A DNA stretch of 38,420 nt, from NCBI GenBank assembly GCA_027036355.1, contig JALVQZ010000125.1, forward strand, positions 1 to 38,420, in the 5' to 3' direction. Of this stretch, positions 10,282-25,747 are shown piece by piece (the stretch's first letter is position 1; each line of letters starts with the position of its first letter). The notes under the pieces are model-generated. The model was given only the letters and a program-made list of their open reading frames with translations, searched no databases and had not been told where the DNA came from. Origin of the DNA: Acidimicrobiia bacterium (GTDB lineage Bacteria > Actinomycetota > Acidimicrobiia > Spongiisociales > UBA5794). The position numbers and the translations under genes are program-made.

Positions 10282-10290
10282 CTCCGTTCC

Positions 10291-10317
10291 TAAACCCCAC
10301 CCGTTCGATGCCGACTG
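10291..10317 (+). promoter_or_regulatory. Candidate sigma28-like promoter TAAA-N15-GCCGACTG for flhB-flhA
   Basis: Near-consensus -35 and -10 half, exact spacing, intergenic, upstream of flhB. Confidence 0.68.
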
Positions 10318-10383: not shown

Positions 10384-11430
10384 ATGAGCGACCGGTCCCA
10401 GGACCGCACCGAGAAGCCGACTCCCCGCAAACGCCGGGAAGCGCGCCGTGAGGGGCGCGTCGCCCGCAGCCAGGAGGTCGGCGTCGCCCTGTCCCTGGTG
10501 GTGCTCGTCGCTTCGGTCCGCTTCCTCTTCCCGCTCGTGGCCCCTCGCCTCCTCGTCGCCGCCAGGGACCTGCTCATCCTCAGTGGGACCGGCCGCATCA
10601 CCCTGGGCGTCCAGGACGCGATCGTCGACATGGTGATCTTCGGACTGCTGCCGGTCCTCGGGCTCGCCACGGTCTTCGGGATCGTCGGCGGCGTGATGCA
10701 GGTCGGGTTCTCCCTGGCGCCCAAGGCCATGAAGCCGAAGCTGTCGAACCTGTCGCCGAAGAAGGGCCTCCAGCAGTTCAAGCCGTCGGTGTTCGGCTGG
10801 AACCTGGTCAAGACGCTCCTCAAGCTGGGGCTCCTCGCCCTGGTGGTCTGGGCGCCGCTCCATGCGGCGCTCTCGGGGCCGCTGGTGCCCTACGGGCTGG
10901 GCAACGCCGTCGGCAATGTGACCGCGATCGCCTGGAAGATCGTCGTGGGAGCCACGGTGTTGGCGGTGGCGATCGCCGGCGCCGACTACGGCGTCACCTG
11001 GTGGCGGACCGAGAAGGAACTCAAGATGACCAAGCAGGAACTCAAGGAGGAGCACAAGACCTCCGAAGGGGACCCGTTGGTGAAACAGCAAAGGAGGCGG
11101 CGTGCAGCCGAGCTGTCGAGGAACCGCATGATCTTCAACGTGGCCTCCGCCGACGTCGTCGTCACGAACCCGACCCATCTCGCGGTCGCGCTCCGCTACG
11201 GGCCGGGAGATCCCGCGCCGAAGGTCGTCGCCAAGGGTGCGGACTCGGTCGCCGCCCGGATCCGGCGGGAGGCGTACCGCCATGGCATCGTCGTGGTCGA
11301 GAACAAACCCATCGCCCGGGCCCTGTTCCGGACCGTCAAGCTCGACCACTTCGTTCCCGCTGCCCTGTTCGAGGCGGTGGCGACGGTCCTCGCCGTCGCC
11401 TACCGGCGCCGGGGGAGGAGGGTCGCGTGA
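10384..11430 (+). CDS. flhB: Flagellar biosynthesis protein FlhB
   Basis: QDRTEKPTPRKRREARREGRVARSQEV; autocleavage motif NPTH followed by LAVALRYG. Confidence 0.97.
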   Translation: MSDRSQDRTEKPTPRKRREARREGRVARSQEVGVALSLVVLVASVRFLFPLVAPRLLVAARDLLILSGTGRITLGVQDAIVDMVIFGLLPVLGLATVFGIVGGVMQVGFSLAPKAMKPKLSNLSPKKGLQQFKPSVFGWNLVKTLLKLGLLALVVWAPLHAALSGPLVPYGLGNAVGNVTAIAWKIVVGATVLAVAIAGADYGVTWWRTEKELKMTKQELKEEHKTSEGDPLVKQQRRRRAAELSRNRMIFNVASADVVVTNPTHLAVALRYGPGDPAPKVVAKGADSVAARIRREAYRHGIVVVENKPIARALFRTVKLDHFVPAALFEAVATVLAVAYRRRGRRVA

Positions 11431-16422: not shown

Positions 16423-16435
16423 GGTCTCGGTCACG

Positions 16436-16462
16436 TAAACATCGCCCCGTTCCGGCCGACAG
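16436..16462 (+). promoter_or_regulatory. Candidate sigma28-like promoter TAAA-N15-GCCGACAG for FlgN-like gene
   Basis: Near-consensus sigma28 elements, exact 15-nt spacer, intergenic. Confidence 0.68.
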
Positions 16463-16470
16463 GAACGGGG
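16445..16470. repeat. Inverted repeat CCCCGTTCC-N8-GGAACGGGG overlapping the candidate -10
   Basis: Perfect 9-bp arms. Confidence 0.85.
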
Positions 16471-16555
16471 ACATGAGCCACCTCATCGCACCTGCGTCGA
16501 TCCCGGCGGGCGCCTCCCGCCGGTCGTGGCGCGGTCTCACGTGGAGGAGCGCCCG

Positions 16556-17095
16556 ATGACCCTCGGTGACGCGGTGTCCGGCTTGATCGGTCCACATCAG
16601 GTGCCGCCACCGTCACCGGCGACCGCCGGTGGCGCCGAGGAGCGGATGCGAGCACTGCTCGCGTTGCTCGACGAGGAGCGGAGCATGCTCGAGAGGCTCG
16701 TGCACAAGCTGGCGGCGGCGACGGTCCTGGCCGAGGCCGCCGAGGACGTCTACCTCCTCAGGGCTGCCGACGAGGTCGTGGAAGCCGAGGAGGACCTCGG
16801 TGCCATGGAACTGGCGAGGGCGATGATGGTCGCCGACATCTGCGATCTGCTCGGCTTCGCCAACGAACTCACCCTCACCCAGCTCACCCAGGTCGCGCCG
16901 GAGGGTCTCAGGGAACCGCTCGAGCGTCGCCGGAGCGAACTCCTCGCCCAGGTCGACGACGTCAACCGGCTCAGGGAACGAGGTCGCGGCGCCGTCGAGG
17001 AGCGGCTGGCGCGGATCGAGCAGGGACTGTCCGGCCTGGAGGCCGCGATGGAAGACGGACGCTACGAGCCGCCGTCGTCGCGACGCTTCACCTGA
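16556..17095 (+). CDS. FlgN-like flagellar chaperone (copy 1)
   Basis: LLALLDEERSMLERLVHKLAAATVLAEAAEDVYLLRAADEV helical protein, similar in layout to the minus-strand gene upstream of flgK. Confidence 0.65.
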   Translation: MTLGDAVSGLIGPHQVPPPSPATAGGAEERMRALLALLDEERSMLERLVHKLAAATVLAEAAEDVYLLRAADEVVEAEEDLGAMELARAMMVADICDLLGFANELTLTQLTQVAPEGLREPLERRRSELLAQVDDVNRLRERGRGAVEERLARIEQGLSGLEAAMEDGRYEPPSSRRFT

Positions 17096-17319
17096 TCGGG
17101 TCGGGTCTCGGCGAAGCGGCGTTTGGCCTCGGCAGCATGCTCGACGGCGGCCAGGTTCTCCCGTTTGACCTGCTCGTACACCTCGGCCCGATGGACCTGG
17201 ACGCTGCGGGGAGCGTCGATCCCGATCCGCACCTGACCGCCGCGAACCTCGACGATCGTGATGACGATGTCGTTCTGGATGACGATGGATTCTCCGGGGC
17301 GACGGGTGAGGACGAGCAT
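17062..17319 (-). CDS. csrA: Carbon storage regulator CsrA
   Basis: MLVLTRRPGESIVIQNDIVITIVEVRGGQVRIGIDAPRSVQVHRAEVYEQVKREN. Confidence 0.97.
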   Translation of the reverse strand: MLVLTRRPGESIVIQNDIVITIVEVRGGQVRIGIDAPRSVQVHRAEVYEQVKRENLAAVEHAAEAKRRFAETRPDQVKRRDDGGS

Positions 17320-17720
17320 CAGGCGGCCGTCAGTTCGAATCGGGCCCTGGCGGGATAGCCGCTGTCGGAGAGCACCACCTGCCGGCCGATGCGCTCGGCG
17401 GCATTGACGACGAACGGGCCGAGGAGGTTGAGGTAGAGCGCGCCTTCGTCTTCGGCGTCGAAGGTCACCGAACAGAACACCGTGGCATCTTCGGGTCGCT
17501 CGATGGAGAGATCGGCCTCGTCCTCGGACGAGAGCTCCAGGGTGTAGTCGGGCACGAACAGCCACGGCACGGTGACCAGCATGGCGATCTCGGGATCGTC
17601 GACCGAGCGCAGCTCGTAGAACGCCGAGTCGGGCGCGAGCTCGACGAGCACGAACCGTTCCAGCTCGGGGAACCCGGGGATACCGCCCGGGAAGCGGATG
17701 ATCTTGTCTTCCATGGTCAC
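17319..17720 (-). CDS. fliW: Flagellar assembly factor FliW
   Basis: IIRFPGGIPGFPELERFVLVEL ... LYLNLLGPFVVNAAERIGRQVVLSDSGYPARARF; adjacent to csrA. Confidence 0.96.
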   Translation of the reverse strand: MTMEDKIIRFPGGIPGFPELERFVLVELAPDSAFYELRSVDDPEIAMLVTVPWLFVPDYTLELSSEDEADLSIERPEDATVFCSVTFDAEDEGALYLNLLGPFVVNAAERIGRQVVLSDSGYPARARFELTAA

Positions 17721-17769: not shown

Positions 17770-18654
17770 TCATCGAAGGAAGTCGACGAGGGACGCCTGG
17801 CTCGATCGAGCGAACACCGCCATCGTCGTCTGGTAGGCGCTTTCCCTGAGCTTGAGATCCATGACCGCCTCGGAGATGTCGACGTCCTCGATCTGGGAGA
17901 GCTGACTGCGAAGCGTGTTGATCTCTTCCAGGAACCGATCCTGGGCGGCGTCGATGCGTCGTCCGGCCGATCCGAGGCGGGCGAGGGCGCCGAGGTTGCG
18001 TTCGAGGGCGGCGTCGATGTCGGCGATGGCGGCTCCCATCGCCGACTGATCGCCGGCCAACGCGGCCGCTTCGAAGTCGTCGAGCACCGTGAAGATGTCG
18101 GTGCCCGCGTTGAAGCCGAAGACGTCGTCCGCGGTGACGTTCACCTGGACGGTCTCGTCGTCGTCGATGCGACGCATCACCGCTCCCGTGTCGCCGGTGA
18201 AGGTCCACGTTCCGGCGATGTTGGTGACGGGGGCACCGGCCCCGAACCCGCCGAAGATGCGGCGGCCCTGGTGCTGGGCGTTGGCGATCTCGACGAGCTG
18301 GTCGCGGATCTCGGCCACCTCGATGGCGATGGCCTGCTGCTCCTCGGCCGATGCGAACGACGCCCCGGTCACGGCCAGTTCCTTGGCCCGTTGGAGCCGC
18401 TCGGACACCGTCTGCAGTTTCGAGTCCGCCACGTTGACCCACATCTCCCCGTCGGCCGCGTTCGTGGCGGCCTGCTCCTTGACGCGGAGCGCCGATCGCA
18501 GCTCCATCGCCTGGCTCATGCCGATCGGGTCGGCGGAGGGCCGATCGAACGACTTGCCGGTGGCGAGGCGCCGCTGCGCGTCGGCCACGGCCGACTGGCC
18601 GGCGCCCATCCGTCGGATGGCTTCGTTGAACTGCCAGCGGTGGGTGATCCTCAT
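17770..18654 (-). CDS. flgL: Flagellar hook-associated protein 3 FlgL
   Basis: MRITHRWQFNEAIRRM...RLATGKSFDRPSADPIGMSQAMELRSALR flagellin-N-like; after flgK. Confidence 0.92.
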   Translation of the reverse strand: MRITHRWQFNEAIRRMGAGQSAVADAQRRLATGKSFDRPSADPIGMSQAMELRSALRVKEQAATNAADGEMWVNVADSKLQTVSERLQRAKELAVTGASFASAEEQQAIAIEVAEIRDQLVEIANAQHQGRRIFGGFGAGAPVTNIAGTWTFTGDTGAVMRRIDDDETVQVNVTADDVFGFNAGTDIFTVLDDFEAAALAGDQSAMGAAIADIDAALERNLGALARLGSAGRRIDAAQDRFLEEINTLRSQLSQIEDVDISEAVMDLKLRESAYQTTMAVFARSSQASLVDFLR

Positions 18655-18657
18655 GCG

Positions 18658-20019
18658 CTACCTCCCCACGAGCCCGGTCCGGTTGACGAGCGTGTCGAGG
18701 AGCTGATCGACGGCGGTCATGACCCGCGCCGCCGCTTCGTAGGAACGCTGGTACCGGATGAGGTCCGCCATCTCCTCGTCGAGGGACACGCCTTGGCGCG
18801 ACTCGCGGATGTTCTGAGCGGTGCGGAGCAGGTTCTGGGACGACTCGGCGTTGGTGGCCGCCAGCCGAGCGCGGCTGCCCACGTCGGTGACGACCTGGCG
18901 GAAGGCGCCGTCGATCGTCGTCGTTCCCGAGAGGGCGACCGCGGCGTCGCGGAGCGCCGCGATGGCGTCGGCGTTGGTGCCGTCGAAGGCCGGAACCGGC
19001 GGCCCGGGGTTGCCGGCGGCGGCGATCTGGGAAGGATCGGTGACGGCGACCGCGATGGTGGAGGCCGCCGCCCCCGGCGTGTAGGTCAGGAGGGGACCGC
19101 CGGCCGCTCCCGACGGGGTGAACCCTGCGGCGTGAGCGGCGTTGATGGCATCGGCCAGGTCGGCGGCGAAGGTGTCGAGGCCGGACATGAGCGCCGGAGC
19201 GTCGTTCGTGAGGAACTCGGCGTAGCCGGCCAGCGCCCCGCCGGGGTTCAACGGGTTGCCCGAGTCGTCGGTGAACGCGTAGGAACCGTCGACGGCGATC
19301 TGGTGGACGGTGCTGCCGTCGACGAGCGCCAGCCCGTTCAACGAGACCCGAACGGTTCCGTCGCCGTTGTCGCTGATCGCGACCCCGGCGAGTTCGGTGA
19401 GCCGGTCGAGGATCCGATCCCGGGAGTCGAGGAGGTCGTTGGGGGCGCCCACGGTGGCCGCATCGAGGATCTGCACGTTGAGCGGCCCGAGGTCGCGCAG
19501 GAGCGTGTTGACCTCACCGACGGTGTCGCGCAACTCGACGCCCGCCCGATCGATCTGGGCGGTCCACGAGCCAGCCAGGTCCCTGATCCGGGCGGTCACG
19601 GCGTCCATGGCCGCGATGGTGTCGAGGCGGGCCGCGGTGTCGGGCGGATCGAGCGCGAGCTGCTCGAACGACGCCCACAGATCCCCGAGGGCGCCGGTGA
19701 TCCCTCCCTCGGGCTCCATCGTCATCTCGTCCATGGTGCCCAGCAGTCCCGACATCGCGGCGAACCTCCCGGCGACCTCCGAGTTGGCCCACACCCGGCG
19801 ATCCGCGAACCGGTCCCGGGCTCGGGAGATGTCGATCACGTCGACCCCCGTGCCGATCGGGCCGACCGGGCTCTGGTAGGTGGAACGGCTCGCCAGTTCG
19901 ACACGCTGGCGGGTGTAGCCGGCGGTCCCGGCGTTGGCGACGTTGTTGGAGGCCGTGTCGGTGCCCGCCTGGGCGGCCTGGAGGGCGGAGAAGGCGGTGT
20001 AGAGGCTGATCATGCTCAT
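18658..20019 (-). CDS. flgK: Flagellar hook-associated protein 1 FlgK
   Basis: ISLYTAFSALQAAQAGTDTASNNVANAGTAGYTRQRVEL; C-terminal SLDEEMADLIRYQRSYEAAARVMTAVDQLLDTLVN. Confidence 0.97.
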   Translation of the reverse strand: MSMISLYTAFSALQAAQAGTDTASNNVANAGTAGYTRQRVELASRSTYQSPVGPIGTGVDVIDISRARDRFADRRVWANSEVAGRFAAMSGLLGTMDEMTMEPEGGITGALGDLWASFEQLALDPPDTAARLDTIAAMDAVTARIRDLAGSWTAQIDRAGVELRDTVGEVNTLLRDLGPLNVQILDAATVGAPNDLLDSRDRILDRLTELAGVAISDNGDGTVRVSLNGLALVDGSTVHQIAVDGSYAFTDDSGNPLNPGGALAGYAEFLTNDAPALMSGLDTFAADLADAINAAHAAGFTPSGAAGGPLLTYTPGAAASTIAVAVTDPSQIAAAGNPGPPVPAFDGTNADAIAALRDAAVALSGTTTIDGAFRQVVTDVGSRARLAATNAESSQNLLRTAQNIRESRQGVSLDEEMADLIRYQRSYEAAARVMTAVDQLLDTLVNRTGLVGR

Positions 20020-20537
20020 CAGAGCACCTCGTCGATCCGCGCCGGGTTCGCCTGTCGCTCGGAGCGGTGGCGACCGGAGGCGTCGTAGAGGCCCGGATCG
20101 CCGTCCCCGTCGGCGAGGATCCCGAAGCTGCCGCCGATCCCCGACAGGCCGAGGGTGGCCAGGCGTCGGTTCTCCTTGGTGACCGATTCGATCTCCCCGG
20201 TGAGGGCGAGGAAGCGGTTGCGATGGTCCTCGAACACCTCGCGCAGCTCCTCGGGTGCGTTGACGGCGAGGTAGGCGAGGGTCACCGACGCGGCGGGAAC
20301 ACCCCATTCGGCGGCGAGGCTCGAGACGATCTCCGCCCGGTCCGTCTCGGTCTTGCGGATCTCGGCGATGATCCGATCCACCTCCCCGATCGCCGGTGCG
20401 ATGAACCGCTGGTCGTCGGCGTTGAGCATGAGGTTGGCGGTCACCAGCTTGAACAGGAGGTACTCCATGAGACGGCGCTCGTACCACAGGATGTCTGCGA
20501 GACGCGTCAACTGCTGGAGGCGGAGCTGTGGATCCAT
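20019..20537 (-). CDS. flgN: FlgN-like flagellar chaperone (copy 2)
   Basis: LADILWYERRLMEYLLFKLVTANLML; coupled to flgK by TGATG. Confidence 0.72.
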   Translation of the reverse strand: MDPQLRLQQLTRLADILWYERRLMEYLLFKLVTANLMLNADDQRFIAPAIGEVDRIIAEIRKTETDRAEIVSSLAAEWGVPAASVTLAYLAVNAPEELREVFEDHRNRFLALTGEIESVTKENRRLATLGLSGIGGSFGILADGDGDPGLYDASGRHRSERQANPARIDEVL

Positions 20538-20545
20538 CGTGGTTC

Positions 20546-20572
20546 CGGTCGGCCGTCGAGACCGCCGCTTAA
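20546..20572 (-). promoter_or_regulatory. Candidate sigma28-like promoter TTAA-N15-GCCGACCG for flgN-flgK-flgL-fliW-csrA
   Basis: Minus-strand motif with exact spacing; -35 inside an inverted repeat shared with the divergent site. Confidence 0.62.
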
Positions 20573-20609
20573 GGAGGAACGGGGCGCCGCAGGGACGTTG
20601 CTCCTTAAG
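20568..20609. repeat. Inverted repeat CTTAAGGAG-N24-CTCCTTAAG spanning divergent -35 elements
   Basis: Perfect 9-bp arms read directly. Confidence 0.93.
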
Positions 20610-20631
20610 TTCGGCGGCGAGCTGCCGAGGT
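20605..20631 (+). promoter_or_regulatory. Candidate sigma28-like promoter TTAA-N15-GCCGAGGT (TTAAGTTC-N11-GCCGAGGT)
   Basis: -35 extension AAGTT resembles the sigma28 consensus; upstream of GGDEF-like gene. Confidence 0.62.
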
Positions 20632-20691
20632 AGGTAGAGGTATATCGATGGAACGTGCCGTCACGGAACGGCCGAGCTCAGGGGAGTCGAC

Positions 20692-21348
20692 ATGAACGGT
20701 GGAACGAACGGACCCGCGGGGATCCCGATGAACGGATCCACCGCCTCGGCCCAGGAGGCGATGGAACGGATCGCCGCGCTCGAGGAGATCATCGCCGGCC
20801 AGCGGGCCGAACTCGGTCTGCTCCGCCTGCAGCTCGAGATGCTGTCCGCGACCGATGTGATCACGGGCCTGCCCAACTTGACCGGCATCATGCAGACCCT
20901 CGAGAAGCAGCTCGCTCGCCATCGTCGGACGGCCGAGCCGTTCGGGATCATGCTGATCGAAGCCGACGGCATCGAAACGACCGAGGGCGCGGGCCAAGAG
21001 GCCCTCCACGACGCGTTGCGCCACTGCGGAGCGATGATCTCGGCGGCGCTGCGCCAGTCCGATACGGTCGGGCGGATCGACGAGCGGACCTTCGCCGCCG
21101 TCCTGCCCGATCTGAGCCGCGACGGTGCGGGCGTGGTGATGGGCAGGATCGACGCCAACCTCCGGACGATGCCTCCCGGCCCGATCGACGCCCCGACCCG
21201 CCTCACCCCGCGTCTGTCGGTCGTGCTGATCGACGGCGCCTTCGCCGGCGACGCCACCGATCTGATGGAGGGCATCAACCGCCTCCGCGTCGAGGCGAAG
21301 CCCGGAGAGCCCACGATCATCGAATCGTCGGACCTCGCCGCCTCCTGA
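20692..21348 (+). CDS. Degenerate GGDEF-domain protein
   Basis: ATDVITGLPNLTGIMQTLEKQL matches GGDEF N-terminal D(x)LTGLPN; signature replaced by GRIDERTFAAVLPD. Confidence 0.75.
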   Translation: MNGGTNGPAGIPMNGSTASAQEAMERIAALEEIIAGQRAELGLLRLQLEMLSATDVITGLPNLTGIMQTLEKQLARHRRTAEPFGIMLIEADGIETTEGAGQEALHDALRHCGAMISAALRQSDTVGRIDERTFAAVLPDLSRDGAGVVMGRIDANLRTMPPGPIDAPTRLTPRLSVVLIDGAFAGDATDLMEGINRLRVEAKPGEPTIIESSDLAAS

Positions 21349-21455
21349 CCGACGCGAGGCATCGGAGACCGTCTCGACGGTCGTGCGTTCCTGGTCACGG
21401 CCGGCCCGCCGCGGGTGCCGGCGACCGTGGTCGCCTCCTCGCCCCACGTTTCCGC

Positions 21456-21482
21456 TTAACCGGCCGTGGTGACGGCCGACGG
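21456..21482 (+). promoter_or_regulatory. Candidate sigma28-like promoter TTAA-N15-GCCGACGG for flgE
   Basis: Exact spacing, intergenic, about 115 nt upstream of flgE. Confidence 0.6.
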
Positions 21483-21596: not shown

Positions 21597-22823
21597 ATGA
21601 TGCGATCGATGTTCTCCGGGGTCTCCGGATTGCGGTCCAACCAGACGATGATGGATGTGGTCGGCCACAACATCGCCAACGTCAACACCGCCGGTTTCAA
21701 GTCCTCCCAGGTCACGTTCGAGGAAGCGCTCGCCCAGACGCTCGGCGGCCCGTCGGGCGCCGGCGTCAACCGCGGCGGGACGAACCCCATCCAGATGGGT
21801 CTCGGCGTGAAGATCGCGTCGACCGACGCCGTCTTCACGCAGGGGGCGACGCAGGTCACGGGCCGGCCCACCGACCTGGCCATCCAGGGCGACGGGTTCT
21901 TCGTGCTCGAAGGCGGCGGCGAACGGGTCTACACGCGGGCCGGCACGTTCCGGTTCGACGAGGTGGGCAACATCGTCGCCCCCGGCGGCATGATGGTCCT
22001 CGGCTGGACCGCCGACGGCGCCGGCAACATCGACAACCAGGTGGCGGTCGCGCCGATCACCCTTCCGCTGACCCAGGTCATCGAGCCGAACCTCACCACG
22101 CTCGTCGAGGTGGGTGGCAACCTGTCCGCCGACACGGCCGTCGGCGACGTGCACCGCACCTCGATCGACATCATCGACAGCCTCGGCGAGTCGAGGAACC
22201 TGCTGATCGAGTTCCAGAAGACCGCAGCCAACGACTGGGACGTGTCGGCCACCGTGGACGGCAACGCCGTGACGCTGTCGACCGCCTCGATCAGCTTCAA
22301 CCCGGACGGATCGCTCGCCGGACCCACCAGCTTCACGGTGTCGGGCTACACGCCCCCCGGCGCGAACCCGCTGAACTTCACGGTGGAGCTCGCCGGGAGC
22401 GCGCCGCTCCTCCAGTACGGCGGCGTGGCCAACGCCGAGGCCGTCAACCAGGACGGCAACCCGATCGGGTTCCTGAGGGACTTCTCGATCGGCGCCGACG
22501 GATCGATCAACGGGGTGTTCTCCAACGGAGAGGCCAAGCTCCTTGCCCAGATCGCCACGGCGACGTTCAACAACCCGTCGGGTCTCGTTCGCAACGGCGA
22601 ATCCCACTTCGCCGCCTCGGTGAACTCCGGTCAGGCCTTGATCGGCGTCCCCGGGGGCGGAGGCAAGGGCACGATCGCCGCCGGTGCCCTCGAGATGAGC
22701 AACGTGGACCTCGCCCAGGAGTTCACCAACCTGATCATCGCCCAGCGCGGGTTCCAGGCCAACTCCAGGATCATCACCGCCAGCGACGAGGTCCTGGCCG
22801 ATCTGGTCAACATGAAGCGATGA
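21597..22823 (+). CDS. flgE: Flagellar hook protein FlgE
   Basis: MFSGVSGLRSNQTMMDVVGHNIANVNTAGFKSSQVTFEE; C-terminal VDLAQEFTNLIIAQRGFQANSRIITASDEVLADLVNMKR. Confidence 0.97.
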   Translation: MMRSMFSGVSGLRSNQTMMDVVGHNIANVNTAGFKSSQVTFEEALAQTLGGPSGAGVNRGGTNPIQMGLGVKIASTDAVFTQGATQVTGRPTDLAIQGDGFFVLEGGGERVYTRAGTFRFDEVGNIVAPGGMMVLGWTADGAGNIDNQVAVAPITLPLTQVIEPNLTTLVEVGGNLSADTAVGDVHRTSIDIIDSLGESRNLLIEFQKTAANDWDVSATVDGNAVTLSTASISFNPDGSLAGPTSFTVSGYTPPGANPLNFTVELAGSAPLLQYGGVANAEAVNQDGNPIGFLRDFSIGADGSINGVFSNGEAKLLAQIATATFNNPSGLVRNGESHFAASVNSGQALIGVPGGGGKGTIAAGALEMSNVDLAQEFTNLIIAQRGFQANSRIITASDEVLADLVNMKR

Positions 22824-23519: not shown

Positions 23520-24594
23520 ACGGCCTCGACCGATGTCGCTGTTCCCTCTCGGGGTGGCGGCGTTCGCGGCGGGGGTGGCGATCACCGCGGTTCCGGGATC
23601 GACGCCGGTCGCGCTGCGGGTGGCGACCTTGGCGGTGTTCGTCGCCGCCTATGTGTGGGCGGCGTCGGTCGAGATCATCGTCCGGCAGCGGTCCGGTGGA
23701 GATCGCCGCTGGTCGGTGCTCCCGCGGCCGGTCCTCGACAGCGTGGTGGACGCGCATCTGGCCACCCGGGCCCACGAGGACGCCCTTCGTTCCGCCATCC
23801 AGCGGGAGCGCATCGCCGGCCTGGAGCTCGAGATCCGGGCTGCGGCCGCGGCGGAGGCACAGCGCCGTGTCGAGGAGCTCAACGCGGAACTCGAGGCGTT
23901 CACGTTCTCCGCATCGCACGACCTGGCCGTCCCTCTCAAGACGATCCGGGCGTTCGTCGCGCTCTTGGAGGAATCGGACGGCCATCGCCTGGGTGAGGAG
24001 GGACGCGAGTACCTCGCTCGGGTGGGCAACATCGCGGCCCGGATGGAGGAGCTGATCGGCGACCTGCTGTCGCTGGCGAGGATGCGGCGCGACGCCGACC
24101 CCGAACCGGCGCTCGTCGACGTGCGTGGCCTCGTCGACGAGGTCGCCGGCGACGTGGAACGAGCCGTCGGCAAGCCCATCGACGTCCGGGTGGTGGGCGA
24201 CGTCGCCGAGCTGCTGGCTCCGCCATCGCGGCTGCGAGCCATCCTGCAGAACCTCATCCACAACGGCGCCAAGTACAACGACCACGAGCGGCCGTCGATC
24301 AGGGTGCTCGTGGACGCCGGGGACCGGTTCGCGTCGCTGGTGATCATGGACGACGGCATCGGGGTGGCCGAGGGCGACCGGGAACGGATCTTCGAGCTGT
24401 TCGTCAGAGGCACGGACCATCTCGGGCTGCCGGGAACCGGCGCCGGCCTGGCGATCGCCCGGCGCGCCGCTCGATCCCTCGGCGGCGACCTCTGGTTGGA
24501 GACGACCGGACCGGAGGGAACCACCTTCTGTCTCACCATCCCCCGAACGGCGGTCCCCGAGCACGGGGCCGGCCGGCCGGCGTCGGTCGCTTGA
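23509..24594 (+). CDS. Sensor histidine kinase 1
   Basis: H-box FTFSASHDLAVPLKTIRAFVALLEE; LIHNGAKYND; IMDDGIGVAEGDRERIFELFVRG; LPGTGAGLAIARR. Confidence 0.92.
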   Translation: MSPERPRPMSLFPLGVAAFAAGVAITAVPGSTPVALRVATLAVFVAAYVWAASVEIIVRQRSGGDRRWSVLPRPVLDSVVDAHLATRAHEDALRSAIQRERIAGLELEIRAAAAAEAQRRVEELNAELEAFTFSASHDLAVPLKTIRAFVALLEESDGHRLGEEGREYLARVGNIAARMEELIGDLLSLARMRRDADPEPALVDVRGLVDEVAGDVERAVGKPIDVRVVGDVAELLAPPSRLRAILQNLIHNGAKYNDHERPSIRVLVDAGDRFASLVIMDDGIGVAEGDRERIFELFVRGTDHLGLPGTGAGLAIARRAARSLGGDLWLETTGPEGTTFCLTIPRTAVPEHGAGRPASVA

Positions 24595-25712
24595 ACCCGG
24601 TGACCGAGCGGACCCCGGAGAGTCCTCAAGGCCTCGAGGGACCTGCCGACGGGTACGCCGCTATGGATCGGAGACACAAGACCATCATCCGTGGGGTCCT
24701 GATCGGGTTCCTGGTCGGGTCGATCTTCCCCCTCGTCGCCCTCGTCGTCGGCAGCGCCACCACCGGATCGGCCTCCATCGTCGACCTCCGGCGCGCCCAG
24801 CCGGTCACGTGGATCATCGACTTCTTCCCGTTCGCCCTCGCCGCCCTCGGTGGGCTCCTGGCCAGCGCCTCGTTCCGTTTCCGGGTCCTCGAGGAGCACA
24901 CCGAGGAGATCGCCCACCGGGTGATCGAGGAGTGGACGACCCAGATCCACGACACCAACGCCGAGATCGCCCGCTCCGCCCAATCCCAGGCGAAGTTCTT
25001 CGCCGCCCTGTCCCACGACATGCGGACGCCGCTGTCGGCCATCATCGGGTTCTCGACGCTCATCGAGGAGGAGGAGCAGGACCCCGAACTCGTGCGGGCC
25101 ATGGCCAGCGACATCCGGTCGTCGGCGACCCAGGTCCTCACCATGGTCAACGACCTCCTCGACGCCGCCCGGATGGACTCGGGGAAGATCGACATCGAGG
25201 TCGTCGACGTCGACACCGAGCAGATGATCAAGGACATCGCCAGGCACATGGGACCCCTCGCGGACGAGAAGCACCTGGACATGTCGCTCGATCTCGAACC
25301 GGGCGTCGAGTGTCGGGCCGATCCGCAGCGCCTCCGTCAGATCCTGATCAACCTCCTGTCCAACGCCGTGAAGTACACCGACGAAGGCGGCATCTGGATC
25401 CGGACCCGCTCGGTCGCCCGCAAGGTCTTCGTGGAGGTCCAGGACAGCGGTGCGGGCATCGCGCCGGAGGACGTGCCCGCGGTCTTCACCCCCTTCGAGC
25501 AGACCACCGTCGCCCAGCAGCGGGTCGACTCGACCGGCCTCGGGTTGCCCATCTCGCTGGGGCTGGCCCAGGCGATGGGTGGCACCATCGAGTTCCACTC
25601 GGAAGGCCCGGGGAAGGGCAGCACGTTCACGCTGATCCTCCCGGCGGCGACGGGCGAGGAAGCCGAGCCGCGGGTCGCCACCCTTCCCACCCTCGTGTCC
25701 TCGGCGGCGTGA
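24591..25712 (+). CDS. Sensor histidine kinase 2 (two N-terminal TM)
   Basis: FFAALSHDMRTPLSAIIGF; LINLLSNAVKYTDEGG; VQDSGAGIAPEDVPAVFTPFEQT; TTG start overlapping previous stop, or ATG at 24663. Confidence 0.92.
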   Translation: MNPVTERTPESPQGLEGPADGYAAMDRRHKTIIRGVLIGFLVGSIFPLVALVVGSATTGSASIVDLRRAQPVTWIIDFFPFALAALGGLLASASFRFRVLEEHTEEIAHRVIEEWTTQIHDTNAEIARSAQSQAKFFAALSHDMRTPLSAIIGFSTLIEEEEQDPELVRAMASDIRSSATQVLTMVNDLLDAARMDSGKIDIEVVDVDTEQMIKDIARHMGPLADEKHLDMSLDLEPGVECRADPQRLRQILINLLSNAVKYTDEGGIWIRTRSVARKVFVEVQDSGAGIAPEDVPAVFTPFEQTTVAQQRVDSTGLGLPISLGLAQAMGGTIEFHSEGPGKGSTFTLILPAATGEEAEPRVATLPTLVSSAA

Positions 25713-25720
25713 CGGCCGCC

Positions 25721-25747
25721 TCAAGTGCGCCGGCGCGATGCCGATGA
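25721..25747 (+). promoter_or_regulatory. Candidate sigma28-like promoter TCAA-N15-GCCGATGA for CheA hybrid
   Basis: -10 GCCGATGA close to GCCGATAA consensus; exact spacing; 41 nt upstream of the GTG start. Confidence 0.58.

Follow-up and report, generated by a model that had tools for sequence, protein, structure and literature searches.

The 154-bp intergenic region shared by flgN and a divergently oriented GGDEF-like gene carries a perfect inverted repeat, and the question arises whether this repeat is the operator of a regulator or follows from the promoters themselves. The original prediction had read it as two mirror-image sigma28-like promoters, whose bases beyond the -35 regions may in addition serve as an activator or repressor site. 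We consider it very probable that the region holds two independent, back-to-back promoters of the sigma28 (FliA/WhiG-clade) type and that the extra symmetry is not an operator. Positions refer to the window, that is, the whole stretch of 38,420 nt that was analyzed.

The predicted promoter pair and its gene neighborhood

20568-20609, no strand: whole inverted repeat CTTAAGGAG-N24-CTCCTTAAG, 9-bp perfect arms with 24 nt between them
20568-20576, minus: left arm CTTAAGGAG, with CTTAAG at 20568-20573 as predicted -35 core of the flgN promoter
20601-20609, plus: right arm CTCCTTAAG, with CTTAAG at 20604-20609 as predicted -35 core of the GGDEF-side promoter
20548-20553, minus: predicted -10 hexamer GCCGAC of the flgN promoter; flgN start codon 10 nt downstream
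20624-20629, plus: predicted -10 GCCGAG of the GGDEF-side promoter; last base departs from the family consensus GCCGAC
20019-20537, minus: flgN (PF05130), predicted to have a leaderless mRNA; stop codon TGA overlapping the ATG of flgK
18658-20019, minus: flgK, first hook-filament junction gene (PF22638 FlgK_D1, Flg_bbr_C); ATG at 20019
17770-18654, minus: flgL, flagellin-family, junction protein by position (PF00669, PF00700)
17319-17720, minus: fliW (PF02623)
20681-20686, plus: putative ribosome-binding site GGGGAG of the GGDEF-like gene, from the sequence
20692-21348, plus: GGDEF-like gene with degenerate signature (PF00990, 51.7 bits)
21455-21480, plus: predicted sigma28-type promoter CTTAAC-N14-GCCGAC of flgE, from the pattern search
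21597-22823, plus: flgE, hook (PF07559, PF06429, PF22692)
16435-16460, plus: GTAAAC-N14-GCCGAC, predicted sigma28-type promoter upstream of a flgN paralogue; conserved in the congener G001
10290-10315, plus: CTAAAC-N14-GCCGAC, predicted sigma28-type promoter upstream of the ORF at 10384; conserved in G001
24625-24650, plus: sigma28-type site CTCAAG-N14-GCCGAC of a histidine kinase gene, 12 nt before the ATG at 24663; conserved in G001
25720-25745, plus: sigma28-type site CTCAAG-N14-GCCGAT before a CheA-like gene; conserved in G001

Both 9-bp arms and the 24-nt spacing between them were found as claimed. The two CTTAAG cores lie 36 bp apart, and outward of each TTAA there are exactly 15 nt followed by GCCGA (20572-20549 on the minus strand, 20605-20628 on the plus strand). 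Hence, a TNAA -35 and a GCCGA -10 at 15-nt spacing are present in both directions. The proposed mirror image holds as far as GCCGA and stops there: the last -10 bases are different (left -10 GCCGACCGG, right -10 GCCGAGGTA), and so are the predicted leaders, of about 2-3 nt on the flgN side against about 55 nt on the other.

Leftward of the repeat the gene order is flgN, flgK, flgL and fliW, and rightward the GGDEF-domain gene is followed by flgE. In Bacillus subtilis the corresponding operon is flgM-flgN-flgK-flgL...fliW-csrA. The order flgN-flgK-flgL-fliW is thus the same, but here flgM is missing from the head of the operon and flgN is the first gene.

Promoter activity is inferred by us from sequence. 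The leftward element, CTTAAG-N14-GCCGAC, would direct transcription of flgN-flgK-flgL, with fliW downstream, from a predicted start near 20540, 1-3 nt before the ATG, which would give a leaderless mRNA. FlgK would then be reached via the TGATG stop-start overlap with flgN. The rightward element, CTTAAG-N14-GCCGAG, would give rise to an mRNA that has a leader and encodes a GGDEF-like protein, which is probably not catalytic. From a predicted start near 20637, this leader of about 55 nt would contain the GGGGAG site, unlike the flgN side. Since both promoters are of the sigma28 type, one flagellar sigma factor would turn both on together. A short ORF at 20648-20693, before the GGDEF-like gene, was dropped, because its ATG is missing in the congener.

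The active sigma28 promoter of Escherichia coli aer reads TAAAGATA-n11-GCCGACAT, with GCCGACAT as the -10 (PMC2859248). Like E. coli FliA promoters, the elements described here combine a TNAA(G) -35 with 15-nt spacing to GCCGA and belong to flagellar and chemotaxis genes, and the GCCGAC -10 that works in aer is the one found at flgN. They differ in that the -35 mostly has T as its second base (CTTAAG), the -10 does not end in TAA, the pair stands back to back and the flgN copy abuts the start codon. The full sigma28 -10 octamer GCCGATAA, which is a consensus and not obligatory in each promoter, is absent from both sites (GCCGACCG and GCCGAGGT); the consensus -10 of the lineage is GCCGACNGG. 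Rubrobacter WhiG promoters have a TAAA -35 and GCCGATAA as the -10, and several of them precede DGC/PDE genes (PMC8325347). Sigma clade, promoter class and phylum are shared with our case, and c-di-GMP-type genes are among the targets in both. However, the Rubrobacter targets are genes for type IV pili and for DGC/PDE enzymes, whereas here they are flagellar genes and a degenerate GGDEF gene.

Recurrence of the motif and a candidate sigma factor

The pattern CTTAA-N15-GCCGA occurs four times in the genome, while its reversed control does not occur at all. The four sites are the divergent pair, flgE (21455) and flgB (on another sequence, L020), so that the motif precedes the flagellar genes flgN, flgE and flgB, and three sites lie inside the flagellar window. 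Among 41 genomes the motif also tracks the flagellar ones. CTTAA-N15-GCCGAC was found at 24 sites in nine flgN-positive relatives (32.3 Mb, 0.74/Mb) compared to two sites in 32 others (85.3 Mb, 0.02/Mb), where the nine are genomes with a clear flgN and the 32 include one, G026, with a weak flgN match. This amounts to an approximately 30-fold density (binomial p=6e-12, a value that overstates independence, because the genomes are mutually related).

The nearest named relatives are actinobacterial metagenome assemblies, mostly labeled Acidimicrobiia. In the order-level set, which comprises 16 flgN loci (the window and L085-L099), the flgN promoter motif was present in all 16, once with GTCGAC and in a few cases with an altered -35. 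The flgE motif was recovered in nearly all of these loci with enough sequence. A profile of 36 aligned sites, slightly weakened by one site (flgB of our genome) that is one base out of register, has its information at CTTAA, at GCCGAC and, weakly, at a GG after GCCGAC. Since the search pattern helped to pick the sites, the core would look conserved in part for that reason alone, and bases outside the pattern provide the unbiased test. Recurrence and conservation in relatives thus agree with the two divergent sigma28-like promoters that had been predicted for flgN-flgK-flgL and the GGDEF-like gene. They also supply a usable flagellar promoter consensus, CTTAA-N15-GCCGAC-NGG, for actinobacteria whose relatives in this set are metagenome assemblies. 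CTCC as an extended -35 was rejected: flgB has CTCCTTAAC here and CGTCCTTAAC in the congener, and hence it is not a conserved feature. Between the flgB promoter and flgB a GC-rich hairpin is followed by a T-rich stretch (L020:1570-1605), a possible leader terminator or attenuator. In the congener two identical CTTATG-N14-GCCGAC sites lie about 1 kb apart (L109, G001:C29:91937 and 93004), perhaps at tandem flagellin genes.

A gene for a FliA/WhiG-like sigma factor is present in the genome (L108:776-1642), and its best structural matches are WhiG and FliA. With the FliA_WhiG model TIGR02479 it scores 175.4 bits (G000:C92:824-1483), below the cut-off of 189.6, and we therefore call it FliA/WhiG-like only. 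Its sigma class (E of about 1e-46 to 1e-55) was detected in 9 of 10 genomes with a flgN match versus 3 of 31 without, and the latter three belong to the same genus as the flgN-positive G026 or G024. A second FliA/WhiG sigma factor, which exceeds the cut-off, is encoded in this genome and in 36 of the 41 genomes, flagellated or not. Given the concentration of the first in flgN genomes and the ubiquity of the second, the L108 factor is the better candidate for reading these sites, on the basis of correlation. One relative, G018, has the promoter motifs and no flagella-type sigma factor among the matches listed. A stretch of about 90 nt upstream of the sigma gene (L108:600-776, G000 contig C92) is nearly unchanged in the congener and contains an inverted repeat, GGTGACCACGG / CCGTGGTCGCC, a possible control site of this gene.

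We also considered FlgM as a regulator. A short FlgM-like match (L100:1498-1640, G000 contig C156; 40 bits, above the Pfam cut-off) is located on a different contig, and relatives that lack flgN have similar matches too; hence no role was assigned to it. Actinobacterial classes of the non-FlgFG type have been reported to lack FlgM (PMC10746217).

The inverted repeat and alternative readings

The pair of arms clearly exceeds what chance would give: when the window was shuffled 100 times with dinucleotides preserved, the gapped repeat never appeared, and in the whole genome it occurs at a single place. CTTAAG itself is found five times in 2.99 Mb, compared to 29 times for the reversed control, and the arms account for two of the five. 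However, a self-complementary hexamer such as CTTAAG forms an inverted (and direct) repeat whenever it is present twice, whatever the orientation. The inverted repeat thus exists because the preferred -35 of the lineage is palindromic, and the region is probably an ordinary pair of sigma28 promoters, for the most part mirror-symmetric only as a consequence of this -35. What needs explanation is solely the GAG/CTC next to the cores and the imperfect extension of the arms, which reach 14 bp inward with one mismatch (CTTAAGGAGGAACG, 20568-20581; CGTTGCTCCTTAAG, 20596-20609), a feature absent from the original prediction. At an assumed G+C content of 66%, composition alone gives the three matches a chance of about 0.02 and the 7/8 inward matches one of about 7e-4.

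These bases would have a function if the 42-bp dyad were an operator, at which a dimeric activator or repressor bound to CTTAAGGAG/CTCCTTAAG co-regulates both promoters. The perfect arms and their extension would suit such a site, as would a one-strand folding z of -3.0, and the low chance of the inward symmetry leaves room for a recent local operator. Comparison with the sole available congener cuts both ways. Arms and -10s are identical at 30 of 30 positions, the arms alone at 18 of 18, while identity is 17/24 (71%) between the arms and 9/14 in the flgN-side spacer. Yet the arm spacing is 23 nt there and 24 nt here, and the inward symmetry drops from 7/8 to 4/8. Moreover, identity at fourfold sites is 78-82% in flgN and the GGDEF-like gene, and at this rate, or at the 71% between the arms, the six extra bases would remain unchanged by chance 13-26% of the time (about 0.13-0.26 from local or fourfold-site identity). 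Outside the genus the dyad is absent: 0-5 of 8 inward positions match, and the two -35s are separated by 4 to 79 nt. The outcome that the original prediction had named as refuting it, loss of the arms beside retained -10s, was thus observed in these relatives for the extra GAG/CTC, which is gone from the pair, but not for the -35 core, which is retained.

The remaining evidence points in the same direction. The three positions upstream of CTTAA are nearly information-free across the 36 promoters (0.08, 0.24 and 0.30 bits), and by exact match the 9-mer CTCCTTAAG occurs in the genome at these two places only, although a strictly local operator would look alike. The arms overlap both -35s, so that a bound protein would need to compete with or replace sigma contacts, and with gaps of 4 or 9 nt between the -35s, as in some relatives, two polymerases would hardly fit together. 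The proposed activator or repressor site is therefore not supported: its bases carry little information, are shared with the congener only, to a degree accounted for by the local neutral rate, and are unique in the genome. We judge an operator unlikely. A strictly local, genus-specific one is conceivable, although nothing requires it, and GAG/CTC and the imperfect extension most likely reflect chance or genus-level inheritance.

Alternatively, the flgN promoter alone might be real, the right copy matching by chance or having decayed, with other signals for expression of the GGDEF-like gene, for instance with the TATATC at 20638-20643 serving another promoter. The right -10 is indeed GCCGAG, and in relatives the GGDEF-side element is less uniform (CTNAAG, N15/N16, variable last -10 base). 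However, wherever the GGDEF-like gene is retained, in 13 loci, a divergent site was found as well (four with N16; weak in G024), and several relatives have the classical TTT/TTG after the -35 (CTCAAGTTT, CTAAAGTTG). The right -35, the -10 and most of the right spacer are unchanged in the congener, and this reading is in our view very improbable. One locus, L095, has no GGDEF-like gene beside flgN and has kept the flgN promoter alone. Finally, that the dyad acts as nucleic acid, for example as a cruciform or as the hairpin of a transcribed terminator or attenuator, is hardly credible despite a single-strand fold of -15.5 kcal/mol (z = -3.0), because it lies upstream of both predicted starts and would be transcribed from neither promoter, both genes point away and need no terminator, a T-run is absent, an Rfam search of the dyad gave no match and the longer pairing is lost in the congener.

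Promoter-to-start distance at flgN and the GGDEF-like partner

The reading as two independent sigma28-type promoters leaves one feature that goes beyond the original prediction and is the part worth following, namely the fixed geometry between the flgN promoter and the flgN start. An in-frame ATG or GTG of flgN follows the -10 hexamer after 9-11 nt in 16 of 16 order-level loci, with start codons taken from sequence and several loci being closely related (L089 and L090 hardly differ). In the sampled rest of the phylum (L114-L137) the element lies 8-10 nt before an in-frame flgN start in 16 of 25 loci. The 8-11-nt bin thus contains 16 cases in each set, whereas other 4-nt bins up to 60 nt contain 0-3 (order) or 0-5 (phylum). 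A -10 element placed 8-12 nt before the flgN start is therefore conserved in the order and in 16/25 loci beyond it.

This fixed distance predicts a leaderless flgN-flgK-flgL mRNA. Transcription of aer begins 6 bp downstream of the -10 octamer (PMC2859248), and by this rule the flgN leader would be about 1-3 nt long. Leaderless genes, which are common in Actinobacteria, are known to be marked by a sigma70 -10 box located some 10-12 bp upstream of the start codon (PMC3160421), and one such gene, atsA, was mapped in Actinoplanes missouriensis (PMC11064477). As in these genes, the -10 distance at flgN would put the start point at the start codon, and a clear ribosome site is lacking. In contrast, the known signal is the sigma70 TANNNT, while here it is the sigma28 GCCGAC in one gene, flgN, order-wide and in much of the phylum. 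A search of open-licence papers for flgN together with leaderless and Actinobacteria returned nothing.

The partner gene has IDERTF where xGGDEF is expected. This signature is degenerate in 12 of 12 aligned sequences, whereas the upstream TGLPN-like block is kept. The GGDEF/GGEEF signature of diguanylate cyclases is thus absent from the window protein and from all aligned homologues, and production of c-di-GMP by this protein seems unlikely, whereas it may have a binding or structural role. GGDEF proteins were reported to be more numerous in flagellated actinobacteria than in others (PMC10746217). Being conserved and preceded by a like promoter type, the degenerate GGDEF gene is a candidate for connecting c-di-GMP with the assembly of flagella.

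Taken as one proposal, we lean toward a picture in which flgN of flagellated Acidimicrobiia and much of the Actinomycetota is locked to a sigma28 promoter and expressed as a leaderless flgN-flgK-flgL mRNA, and in which the divergent, non-catalytic GGDEF partner may link c-di-GMP to flagellar assembly. If true, synthesis of the filament junction would need leaderless translation initiation as well as the flagellar sigma factor. Leaderless flgN mRNAs across much of the phylum are a cheap testable prediction, which can be checked against existing start-site maps, among them Cappable-seq data of A. missouriensis.

The consensus also corrects gene starts that depend on promoter position. The true start of the histidine kinase gene is probably 24663, instead of the TTG at 24591. 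At the 16435 promoter, GCCGAC is followed at 12 nt by an ATG; the 28-codon ORF that starts there ends in a TGA overlapping the ATG at 16559 of the flgN-like gene. This arrangement of promoter, 28-codon ORF and second flgN-like gene (16435-16561) is kept in the congener.
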